In this document: positions 3,778 through 34,047 of the stretch, one piece after another
Numbering within the stretch: position 1 is the first letter of the stretch
Layout of the letters: each line of letters starts with the position of its first letter
From: Novosphingobium sp. 17-62-19
GTDB lineage: Bacteria; Pseudomonadota; Alphaproteobacteria; Sphingomonadales; Sphingomonadaceae
NCBI RefSeq assembly: GCF_002256775.1
Contig: NZ_NCII01000023.1
Span: 1 to 34,527, forward strand
Direction: 5' to 3'
DNA length: 34,527 bases
The notes under the pieces: model-generated
Databases searched by the model: none
Told to the model about the DNA's origin: nothing
The model's input: only the letters and a program-made list of their open reading frames with translations
Made by a program: the position numbers and the translations under genes

Positions 3778-3913
3778 TCCTCCCCGTCACGGGTAGGGGG
3801 ACCGCGTAGCGGTGGAGGGGGCTATCCATTGCCCGACACTTCTCGCGTTGGTGCTGATGCGATAGCCCCCTCCACCACGCTTCGCGCGGTCCCCCTCCCC
3901 GTGCCAGGGAGGA
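3778..3913. repeat. Family A palindromic element, copy A1 (ligK-ligU gap)
   Basis: About 136 bases fill nearly the whole ligK-ligU gap. The outer arms are TCCTCCC (3778-3784) and GGGAGGA (3907-3913). The core arms GGTGGAGGGGGCTATC (3811-3826) and GATAGCCCCCTCCACC (3861-3876) are a perfect 16-base inverted repeat around a 34-base unique loop. Closely related copies occur at 31706-31833 and 33047-33190. It begins 2 bases after the ligK stop and ends 4 bases before the ligU ATG. Confidence 0.92.
3907..3912 (+). promoter_or_regulatory. ligU Shine-Dalgarno inside palindromic element
   Basis: GGGAGG stands 5 bases before the ligU ATG at 3918. It is the right outer arm of element A1, so the ribosome binding site of ligU is built from the repeat. 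In the mRNA this arm can pair with the left arm at 3778-3784, which could mask it. Confidence 0.7.
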
Positions 3914-3917
3914 TCAC

Positions 3918-5986: not shown

Positions 5987-6071
5987 TGCGCCCCCGCGAA
6001 GGCGGGGGCCTCAGGCCATTTACGCGAACATTCCGATACAACACCGAGACCCCCGCCTTCGCGGGGGCGCA
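5987..6071. repeat. Family B paired hairpin element, copy B1
   Basis: Two GC-rich hairpins (CCCCCGCGAAGGCGGGGG and CCCCCGCCTTCGCGGGGG) lie in inverse orientation about 45 bases apart, making one large inverted repeat bounded by TGCG and CGCA. It begins 14 bases after the ligI stop and could end or stabilise that transcript. The remaining bases to the chemoreceptor start (6072-6260) show no gene or clear promoter. Confidence 0.88.
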
Positions 6072-11476: not shown

Positions 11477-11560
11477 CGCGTCCCCGCGCAGGCGGGGACC
11501 TCGGTCGGATTACGCTGCCGTTCTGTGATAGCCCTGAGGCCCCCGCCTTCGCGGGGGCGC
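11477..11560. repeat. Family B paired hairpin element, copy B3
   Basis: The left unit TCCCCGCGCAGGCGGGGA and right unit CCCCCGCCTTCGCGGGGG are inversely oriented about 43 bases apart. The right end lies 7 bases after the stop of the leftward M28 peptidase gene, and the left end lies upstream of the clpB promoter. It may therefore insulate clpB from readthrough. Confidence 0.87.
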
Positions 11561-16261: not shown

Positions 16262-16363
16262 CCCCCTCCTCTTCAGAGGAGGGGGCAAGGGGGTGGTGTT
16301 TCCTACGCACAAGCATCGTCGAAACGCCACCACCCCCAACCCCCTCCTCTGAAGAGGAGGGGG
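16262..16363. repeat. Family D compound palindrome D1
   Basis: Two 24-base hairpins, CCCCCTCCTCTTCAGAGGAGGGGG (16262-16285, given here by position with an 11-base stem) and its reverse complement (16340-16363), enclose further complementary arms (GGGGGTGGTG and CACCACCCCC). The whole is one inverted repeat with a central unique stretch. It starts 7 bases after the M16 stop and ends CTTTTG, so it could act as a terminator. Only one copy is in this window. Confidence 0.88.
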
Positions 16364-16440
16364 CTTTTGTTGGCCTGTCTTGCTATTGACACTTTTGTAA
16401 TTAGACTACGCGCGACCAACACGAAAATGGGAGAGCATCC

Positions 16441-26413: not shown

Positions 26414-26427
26414 GCCGTCAATCTTGC

Positions 26428-26508
26428 TTCCCCGCGAAGGCGGGGACCTCAGGCCGTTTACGCTAGGGTTGCTTGAGAACCCCGAGGCCCCCGCCTTCGC
26501 GAGGGCGC
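26428..26508. repeat. Family B paired hairpin element, copy B4
   Basis: Left unit CCCCGCGAAGGCGGGG and right unit CCCCCGCCTTCGCGAGGG are inversely oriented about 43 bases apart. It fills the gap between the convergent ATP12 and PqiC-like genes and is well placed to act as a bidirectional terminator. Confidence 0.86.
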
Positions 26509-30192: not shown

Positions 30193-33033
30193 ATGAACGA
30201 GCACAACGCACAGCAGAATTCAGGCGAACTGGCCAAGACTTTCGAACCCGCCGGGATCGAGGCCAAGTGGTATGCCCACTGGGAATCGAACGGCCTGTTC
30301 CGGCCCGAACGGCCCGACGCCCAACCCTATACCATTGTGAACCCGCCGCCGAACGTCACCGGCAGCCTCCACATCGGCCACGCGCTCGATAACACGCTGC
30401 AGGACGTGGTGATCCGCTATGAACGCCTGCGCGGCAAGGATGCGCTGTGGGTGGTCGGCACCGACCATGCGGGCATTGCCACGCAGATGGTGGTCGAACG
30501 CCAGATGGAGGCCAAGGGCGACAAGCGCAGCAACTACACCCGCGATGAATTCATCGGCAAAGTGTGGGAGTGGAAGCACGAAAGCGGCGGCACGATCACC
30601 GGCCAGCTGCGGCGCCTGGGCTGTTCGATGGACTGGTCCCGCGAACAGTTCACGATGGACCCGCACTTCACCAAGGCGGTCGTGAAGGTCTTTGTCGACC
30701 TGCACAAACAGGGCCTGATCTACCGCGACAAGCGCTTGGTGAACTGGGACCCCAAGCTGAAGACCGCGATTTCCGACCTCGAAGTGGAAACGCGCGAGAC
30801 GCAGGGCGGCTTCTGGCACTTCAAGTACCCGCTGGCGGATGGCGTGACGCGCGATGATGGGCTGGATTACATCGAGGTCGCCACCACGCGTCCCGAGACG
30901 ATGCTGGCCGATATGTGCGTGGCGGTGCATCCTGAAGATTCGCGCTATGCCAGCGTGATCGGCAAGGACATCCTGCAACCGCTGACCGGTCGCCGGTTCA
31001 AAGTGGTAGCCGATGAACACGCCGATCCCGAACTGGGTTCCGGCGCCGTGAAGATCACACCGGGCCACGATTTCAACGACTTCGAAGTGGGCAAGCGCGC
31101 CGGGATCAAGGCCGCCGACATGCTCAACATGTTCGATGCCGAGGCGAAGGTTGTGCAGACGGCGGACGGTCTGGTGCCTGCCGAATTCATCGGCATGGAC
31201 CGGTTCGACGCGCGCAAGTTGGTGGTCGAGCGGATGAAGGAAGCAGGCTTCCTGATACCCCACGTGACGACGGACAAGGAAGGCAACGAAGTTTCCGCCG
31301 ATTTCGAACCACGCACGATCCAGACGCCGTTCGGCGATCGCGGCGGCGTGGTGATCGAACCGTGGCTGACCGACCAATGGTATGTCGATGCCGAGACTTT
31401 GGCCCAGCCCGCAATTGCTGCGGTGAAGTCTGGCGAGATCGAGATCGTGCCCAAGACGTGGGAGAAGACCTTCTTCAACTGGATGGAAAACATCCAGCCT
31501 TGGTGCGTCAGCCGCCAATTGTGGTGGGGGCACCGGATTCCGGCTTGGTATGGCTCTGACGGGCAATGCTACGTAGCCGAGACTGAAGAAGAAGCGCAGG
31601 CAAAGGCCGGGGCCAGCGTCACTCTGTCCCGCGACGAAGACGTCCTCGACACATGGTTCTCCTCCGCGTTGTGGCCCTTTGCCACGCTCGGTTGGCCGGA
31701 GGATCATCCTCCCCAGCATGGGGAGGGGGACCATGCGCAGCATGGTGGAGGGGGCTCTCCGCACGCACAGCCTTTTGGGGATAACCCCCTCCACCACCCT
31801 GCGGGCGGTCCCCCTCCCCGTTCCGGGGAGGATCGCTCCCTCCTCGCCAAACACTACCCCAACGACCTGCTGATTTCCGGCTTCGACATCCTGTTCTTCT
31901 GGGACGCCCGCATGGCAATGCAGGGGCTGCACTTCATGAAGGAAGTGCCTTGGAAGAAGCTCTATCTCCATGGTCTCGTCCGCGCCGCCGATGGCGCGAA
32001 GATGAGCAAGTCGAAGGGCAACGTGGTCGATCCGCTGCTGCTGATCGACAAGTACGGCGCCGATGCCCTGCGCTTCTTCATGTGCGCGATGGAGAGCCAG
32101 GGCCGCGACGTGAAGATGGATGAACGCCGCGTCGAAGGCTATCGCAACTTCGCCACGAAGCTGTGGAACGCCGCGCGCTTCTGCCAGAGCAACGGGATCA
32201 CCGGCAGCACGTCGGTAGCAGCTCCGGCAGCGACATCGGCGGTCAACAAGTGGATCATCGGCGAAGTGGTGGAAACCGTCGCCGCGCTCGATCAGGCCAT
32301 GGCCGACTTGCGCTTCGATGCTGCGGCAAACACCGTCTACCACTTCGTATGGGACCAGTTCTGCGATTGGTACATCGAACTGGTGAAGGGCAATTTCGAC
32401 GCCGAAACCCGCGCGGTGGCAGGCTGGGTGCTCGACCAGATTCTGGTGATGTTGCACCCGTTCATGCCGTTTGTGACCGAGGAATTGTGGCATTCGCTTG
32501 GGAAGCGTGAAGGCGAGCTGATCGTGGCCGCTTGGCCCGATCCGCAGGCCTCGGTCGATCCGGCGGCCAAGCGCGAGGTCGAATGGCTGATCGCACTCGT
32601 TTCCAACCTGCGCACCGCCAAGAACGAACTCGGCATCGCGCCGGGGGCAAAGCTGGACGCCTATCTGCCCGATCCTTCGGACCAGACGCGCGGCATCATC
32701 GAAGCCAACCCCGCAGCCATCGAGCGACTGGCGCGCCTGAACGGTATCCGCTTTGCAGCAGCGCCTGCGGGTGCGGCGATGCAGGTGGGTGCCGGGGACG
32801 CCAACATCGTGGTGCCGCTGGAAGGCGTGATCGACATTGCTGCCGAAAAGGCCCGTCTGGAAAAGGCCCTGGCAGTCTCGCAGAAGGAAACCAAGTCGCT
32901 CGAAGGACGCTTGGGCAATCCCTCGTTCGTCGAAAAGGCCAAGCCCGAGGCAGTCGAAAAGGCCCGCGCCGACCACGCCATGCACGCTGCCGAGGCCGAA
33001 CGGCTTGCGGCGGCGCTGGCGCGGTTGGGGTGA
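30193..33033 (+). CDS. valS: Valyl-tRNA synthetase with in-frame palindromic insert
   Basis: Class I synthetase that charges tRNA(Val), with editing of misloaded Thr. The 946-residue product contains the HIGH motif in [18 protein letters not shown], the editing (CP1) domain with [18 protein letters not shown] and [38 protein letters not shown], the KMSKS motif in [20 protein letters not shown], an anticodon-binding domain, and the C-terminal coiled coil (about 880-946). Between GWPE and [11 protein letters not shown] lies a Pro/Gly/His-rich stretch encoded by element A2 (31706-31833). Removing 129 bases joins GWPED to RSLLAKHYP, the usual continuation. The start at 30193 follows AAGG by about 9 bases; earlier in-frame ATGs are less likely. 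Whether the insert affects activity is unknown. Confidence 0.95.
31706..31833. repeat. Family A palindromic element, copy A2, inside valS
   Basis: 128 bases within the valS frame with outer arms ATCCTCCCC (31706-31714) and GGGGAGGAT (31825-31833) and inner arms GGTGGAGGGGG and CCCCCTCCACC. It is clearly related to A1 and A3. GGATC is found on both sides (31701-31705 and 31830-31834), so the net insertion may be 129 bases or exactly 43 codons. Confidence 0.93.
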
Positions 33034-33046
33034 TGCTACACAACGC

Positions 33047-33190
33047 CCATCCTCCCCGGCACGGGGAGGGGGACCGCGCGAAGCGTGGTGGAGGGGGCTA
33101 TCGTTGGAGAGCCGCCCTTCAAGATTGTGCCAGGTGGATAGCCCCCTCCACCGCCTGCGGCGGTCCACCTCCCCGTGCCGGGGAGGATGG
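33047..33190. repeat. Family A palindromic element, copy A3 (valS-queE gap)
   Basis: 144 bases. Each end forms its own hairpin (CCTCCCCGGCACGGGGAGG on the left) and the two ends pair with each other. Inner arms GGTGGAGGGGGCTATC and GATAGCCCCCTCCACC match A1. It begins 13 bases after the valS stop and ends 3 bases before the queE GTG. Confidence 0.93.
33181..33186 (+). promoter_or_regulatory. queE Shine-Dalgarno inside palindromic element
   Basis: GGGAGG is the right outer arm of element A3 and stands 7 bases before the GTG at 33194. It is the only good ribosome binding site near the queE start and it supports that choice. Confidence 0.7.
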
Positions 33191-33956: not shown

Positions 33957-34047
33957 CACTGCTCCCCCGCGAAGGCGGGGGCCTCAGGCGTTTTACTGAG
34001 AGGTTCCGTAAACGGCACGAGGCCCCCGCCTTCGCGGGGGAACAGTG
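33957..34047. repeat. Family B paired hairpin element, copy B5
   Basis: Left unit CTCCCCCGCGAAGGCGGGGG and right unit CCCCCGCCTTCGCGGGGG are inversely oriented, and flanking CACTG/CAGTG extends the pairing. It lies between the convergent queE and ssb stops (20 and 15 bases away) and probably acts as a bidirectional terminator. Confidence 0.88.

Follow-up and report, generated by a model that had tools for sequence, protein, structure and literature searches.

An in-frame palindromic repeat in the valS gene of a Novosphingobium draft genome, and unlinked repeats in the same loop of its relatives

How does an essential, conserved enzyme gene come to hold a stretch of palindromic DNA within its reading frame, and does this happen once or repeatedly? 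The valS gene of Novosphingobium sp. 17-62-19 raises this question. We analysed it within a 34,527-nucleotide stretch of contig NZ_NCII01000023.1 (hereafter the window), together with the rest of the draft genome and with genomes sampled from the genus, family, order and class.

The palindrome inserted in valS

The gene and the parts of the inserted element are as follows.

30193..33033, + strand: valS, valine--tRNA ligase, 946 residues plus stop (open frame; NCBIfam)
31705..31833, + strand: added valS codons 505-547, 43 codons without a stop, relative to the short loop in relatives
31706..31833, no strand assigned: 128-base palindromic repeat of family A within valS (imperfect palindrome, fold)
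31706..31763, no strand assigned: left palindrome arm, 58 bases, pairing with the right arm
31776..31833, no strand assigned: right palindrome arm, 58 bases, pairing with the left arm

The valS product exceeded the NCBIfam cut-offs for valine--tRNA ligase, with the best-scoring stretch ending at residue 504-505, and no stop interrupts the frame. The two arms are 81% complementary. The RNA fold of positions 31701-31834 reached -100.2 kcal/mol (z -10.0), matched by none of 200 shuffles, and the single-stranded DNA fold of the palindrome (z -8.4) was likewise matched by 0 of 200. The original prediction had described a palindromic repeat that adds exactly 43 stop-free codons to an essential gene without breaking its frame, and its coordinates and size hold. 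As in the insertions of Rickettsia palindromic elements (RPEs), this is a palindromic sequence with further copies in the genome, lying in a conserved gene whose frame is intact and most of whose homologues lack the insert.

GGATC occurs on both sides of the element (31701-31705 and 31830-31834), and the original prediction had pointed out that deleting 129 bases between the two copies restores the expected family sequence. The pair is present but is not a conserved target duplication, since a second genome (locus L059), in which family A occupies the corresponding place, reads GAAGAC upstream; we regard the pair as incidental. A target-site duplication was also sought by way of an unoccupied site, and no strain-level empty site was found. 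The window gave no Rfam match at gathering score, and no terminator-like site was found in the valS insert. One promoter-like site (31679-31707) fell at the insert where 0.5 were expected, the region overall being at chance level.

The insert encodes a peptide rich in Pro, Gly and His. An AlphaFold2 model built on an 80-row alignment had a mean pLDDT of 79, with residues 511-540 at 25-26, and placed the low-scoring insert between helices 490-499 and 550-554. The best Foldseek match in the PDB was the Thermus ValS 1gax, which by sequence has four residues between the aligned parts where the insert sits. The expectation that the insert forms a loop agrees with this model, in which most of it is predicted to be unstructured (pLDDT about 25).

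Family A copies and the ValS loop in relatives

Family A occupies 29 distinct places in the 3.8-Mb draft genome (149 contigs, 95% completeness; 47 matches, both strands). Nine copies are near full length and about 20 partial, some of these short. Two further copies lie in the window.

3778..3915, no strand assigned: family A copy with no spanning frame of more than 150 residues (repeat comparison)
about 33048..33190, no strand assigned: intergenic family A copy just past the valS stop (repeat comparison)

Sixteen entries were checked for spanning frames, the three copies on contig C141 counting as one entry and weaker places being left out. Four lie in frame in genes, namely in valS, twice in glyS and once in ligA. 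The glyS frame was identified as glycyl-tRNA synthetase beta by both Pfam and NCBIfam, and each of its copies spans 43 codons in the same phase as in valS. In ligA, which encodes the NAD-dependent DNA ligase, the Pfam match to the helix-hairpin-helix ends at the inserted copy. For two other entries (L026 and L006) a Pfam domain starts after the element, so both were taken as upstream of a gene; the remaining entries were judged by eye. Family A is therefore not restricted to intergenic space, and the original prediction erred in describing it as otherwise seen between genes and valS as the only gene hit. Across other genomes, 29 best loci (one per genome; L176, L182, L189 and L190, at contig ends, left unplaced) included three in genes, two in ValS (L169, L171) and one within TruB (L194), an identity that profile scoring confirmed.

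The family A copy adjoining the end of valS (33048-33190) has counterparts in three relatives (G006:C54:100721-100860; G094:C1:632100-632225; G018:C258:34816-34864). The copy inside valS may have arisen locally from such a neighbour.

The ValS loop flanked by GWP and LLxKHYPND was read in 107 of 119 Novosphingobium genomes. The other 12, without a listed valS row, had the lowest-scoring matches, and so represent fragments or divergent valS. Counted from FATLGWP to the anchor GFDILFFW, the loop measured 24-25 residues in 81 of the 107 and 30-72 residues in 26. One of these longer loops (L254) is plain sequence; repeat-type inserts, all linked to a repeat DNA group, occur in 25 of the 107 genomes.

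The survey was widened to 128 genomes of the order, 61 of them from other genera of the family and 61 from other families. Within the family, 13 of the 61 carry a ValS insert (12 seen as an alignment broken at the loop, one as extra residues). All 13 were read out; the loop of L397 is identical to that of L104, and the 12 distinct inserts all fall within the repeat groups. Among the 61 genomes from other families, one gave no match and two (G155 and G196) have matches that end nearby; in the others no break was seen at the loop. In a class sample of 124 genomes (117 matched), G311 was the only one outside the order with a break at the loop, and the match of G258 ends nearby; the G311 insert (L404) is of low complexity and not palindromic by eye. 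The trait is thus common in the family and rare in the samples outside it. The alignment bore out the forecast that most related ValS would lack the insert, and what distant relatives could have shown, the same 43 residues, did not appear; instead, different repeats were found at the same place.

Other variable features of ValS were seen in these alignments. L094 has a second in-frame repeat-like insert after about residue 736 of the window protein, and L400 (G220) holds two SSEVE-type units in tandem in the loop. A second variable region, from PAWYG to RDxDVLDTW, takes a short (~30 residues) or a long (about 67-97 residues) form; the long form (e.g., L062, L066 and L108) contains no palindrome-like sequence by eye.

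Unlinked repeat groups in shared loops

After removal of the gene flanks, the 51 distinct expansions of the ValS loop were grouped by DNA linkage, which replaced a regular-expression classification that proved too loose (one pattern caught many rows). They fall into three unlinked DNA groups of 20, 19 and 10 members, together 49 of the 51, and two plain singles, L254 and L119, which we counted as longer loops and excluded as repeats. Subfamilies were recognized within groups by eye; the group of 19, for example, includes a PELVEG and an SSEVE type. Where loop DNA was folded, the repeat-type loci gave z-scores from -1.6 to -7.7, against +0.7 for the plain L119. Of 39 ValS expansions, 32 match glyS or ligA expansions of the sampled genomes (E ≤ 1e-3; the weakest matches are short), which identifies them as dispersed repeats and not ValS features; the seven unmatched comprise both plain loops and five expansions of the PELVEG type.

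The abundance of one type was followed across genomes, with both strands counted. Five genomes with the SSEVE type in ValS gave 78, 21, 62, 14 and 14 matches. Four in which it is unseen in ValS and LigA (G070, G018, G006 and G000) gave 0, 1, 4 and 8, and three chosen because the LigA loop holds all or part of it (G028, G011 and G058) gave 79, 41 and 9.

Two glyS loops and one ligA loop follow the ValS pattern. For glyS, 82 loci were obtained from 89 genomes (7 had no match at the cut-off). Loop S1, read in 80 of the 82, has 14-15 residues in 64 loci, 19-23 in 6 and at least 35 in 10, and loop S2, read in 77, has 32-36 residues in 48 and 43-119 in 29, of which L383 is plain by eye. DNA matches to expansions at another site were found for 10 of 16 S1 and 22 of 29 S2 expansions. 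For ligA, 59 genomes were searched and 57 matched; the 30 loci fetched are the best matches to an insert-bearing query, which biases the ligA numbers. Twenty-nine were read, with 18 longer loops, 6 of which match expansions elsewhere.

In glyS we also observed several repeat units in a row in S2 of L282 (G028), with 119 residues between anchors. Read by eye, ARWLV precedes each expanded S2 loop (e.g., L275, L285 and L291) except L383, whereas most short S2 loops follow AEWLA or another version, so that filled loops go together with one flanking allele.

Repeats inside genes have been described in several bacteria. Di Nocera et al. (2013; PMC3733652) report REPs within genes, in 'E. lithoralis' and S. 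alaskensis those for tRNA synthetases and TruB, in O. terrae that for DNA ligase, and also name TruB as insert-bearing for Rickettsia. They describe different REPs near one recB site in two Xanthomonas species; besides recB, REPs in genes of the same category are described there as occupying different sites. Because intragenic REPs in sphingomonad synthetases were in print in 2013, the statement that no such case was known for sphingomonads was mistaken. Those repeats resemble ours in lying inside genes, including tRNA synthetases, TruB and DNA ligase, but are tagged GTAG or CGTC in that account; by eye, 31706-31833 contains neither motif nor its complement and so lacks the mark of REPs of those types. 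A RAYT as the mover in this genome was considered and set aside: the Y1 (RAYT-type) transposase profile PF01797 had no match in the draft (95% completeness), with 5 of 14 control genomes positive and a match in 37 of the 119 genus genomes.

The likeness to RPEs drawn in the original prediction is apt as to the manner of insertion, an in-frame palindrome in an essential gene. RPEs are described as palindromes of about 100-150 bases, both intergenic and in frame within conserved genes (PMC3767692, PMC2229807, PMC3733652). The host group here is another one and the DNA is GC-rich. Among spotted-fever Rickettsia, genes with an RPE are described as conserved in place (PMC3767692), whereas close relatives here differ both in loop state and in repeat group; for R. 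japonica, the same source suggests that different RPE groups at one locus mark insertion hotspots. MITEs such as QMITE of Coxiella, ERIC, Correia and YPAL are also described as short, non-autonomous, mostly intergenic and at times joined in frame to genes (PMC5896051, PMC2229807). Several of them have direct repeats or target duplications in these accounts, and no conserved one was seen here. By analogy, the insert would work like RPE and intragenic REP insertions, which does not imply membership in either sequence family. The papers listed by our literature searches mentioned, in their titles and abstract openings, neither in-frame palindromes in Novosphingobium nor recurrent use of these loops, and we found no account in print of reuse of one loop by unrelated repeats on such a scale. 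What is added to the known cases is this frequent reuse. The in-frame, RPE-like insert, predicted to be unstructured and absent from most relatives, thus stands, and its confinement to valS and the lack of a sphingomonad precedent do not.

How the inserts may persist and turn over

The best explanation, to which we assign a probability of roughly 0.8, is that valS received a copy of a short palindromic, non-coding repeat, mobile now or in the past, and that this copy was kept where a loop tolerates a disordered linker. Such a family would spread through the genome, chiefly into intergenic space, and copies within genes would survive only with the frame kept, no stop introduced and a tolerant loop at the site. 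A Pro/Gly/His-rich disordered linker between two helices would do ValS little harm, and ValS, GlyS and LigA would each own tolerant loops that successive repeat families occupy. The valS insert would then persist because it keeps the frame, brings no stop and lies in a loop between two helices that tolerates a linker. The 43 residues are probably translated, kept in the mature enzyme and near neutral, and the loop would be permissive rather than a preferred target; the repeat itself is, or was, probably mobile.

Selection for the inserts offers an alternative that we consider unlikely. An mRNA hairpin could slow translation of the catalytic domain, or the disordered loop could bind, with genes for tRNA enzymes continuing to gain such inserts. 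The same few loops are used again and again, the genes hit are two synthetases, TruB (in L194) and LigA, and the hairpin is very stable; this reuse of loops, like the tRNA-related genes hit here and in published cases, could mean a selected role. However, the inserts come from unlinked sequence groups, most ValS have none (81 of 107), and the state of the loop differs between close relatives. L067 and L076, 96.9% alike in ValS, are one filled and one empty, and the ValS in the set most like that of this genome (L062, 95.3% over kept columns) has an insert from another DNA group. Nor was peptide constraint seen in the single pair measured, the inserts of this genome and L059 (pN 0.067, pS 0.079; nine differences). 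Over the next 300 codons the same pair gave pN 0.073 and pS 0.409. We read the two inserts as two recent insertions or as homogenisation, in either case with little apparent peptide constraint, as far as nine differences can indicate.

This comparison also bears on a single ancestral insertion passed down by descent, with later divergence, loss or replacement. This genome and L059 do share the family at the same place and sit in a supported clade of five. Against common descent, the DNA falls into three unlinked groups, and the silent difference between the family A inserts (0.08) is far under that of the flanking gene (0.41). On a ValS tree of 80 rows, built by a quick method with loop columns removed and with 21 rows labelled as expanded by eye, filled and empty states required at least 18 changes, and 300 label shuffles averaged 18.8 (sd 1.3), 114 of them at 18 or fewer; alignment A1 excludes L088. 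Kinship therefore hardly predicts loop state. The filled or empty state shows no phylogenetic signal on this quick tree, where parsimony is blind to gain versus loss and thus leaves room for serial replacement at an old site. Altogether, we hold a single inherited insertion to be very improbable.

Still less probable is that the segment is cut from the RNA or bypassed by the ribosome and never enters the protein. It does form a compact hairpin, but a segment that is removed or skipped would not need an open frame. All 107 genus ValS run in one frame without a stop, and no stop was found in the 108 longer loops of valS, glyS and ligA, a set that, like the glyS loop readings, required equal frame on both sides (which cost the ValS set no locus). 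An assembly error is scarcely credible: repeats can misjoin pieces in a draft of 149 contigs, but family A also stands at this place in the assembly behind L030/L059, and many further assemblies have in-frame inserts at the ValS loop.

About a quarter of the relatives examined have repeats in this loop, often from unrelated families, which points to repeated tolerance of selfish DNA in housekeeping enzymes. Starting from the preferred reading of a tolerated mobile repeat, we give even odds to a further proposal: that the ValS GWP loop, the two GlyS loops and the LigA helix-hairpin-helix loop are standing harbours in which a lineage's abundant repeat lands, later to disappear or give way to another, and that this turnover outpaces the divergence of species. 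A loop made dispensable by an earlier insert may stay open as a harbour.

These observations indicate that essential genes in a large group of free-living bacteria often hold selfish palindromes within their reading frames, and that unrelated repeats return to the same protein loops. With both filled and empty alleles among close relatives, they amount to a natural insertion-tolerance experiment in housekeeping enzymes, which makes it testable whether such inserts are neutral, harmful or useful. They also carry a warning, as alignments and structural models of these enzymes can be led astray by inserts of this kind.

The window contains other palindromic repeats. A second family (family B), of ~84 bases or 28 codons, occurs at 5987-6070, 11477-11560, 26425-26508 and 33960-34043, with 81 matches (both strands) in this genome. 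At 9 of 30 own-genome loci (a set that includes L155 at a contig start, its position mis-set), a frame spans the element with 40 or more residues on each side. Two of these nine were run against Pfam, where a domain follows the element in L157 and L162 has no domain; the others were judged by eye, and none was counted as lying in a gene. Peptides that by eye are related (PAKAGASG..VPAFAGT) fill glyS loop S2 in several relatives. Finally, two short CCTCTTCAGAGG palindromes at 16262-16364 resemble, by eye, the ValS insert of L066 and L201.
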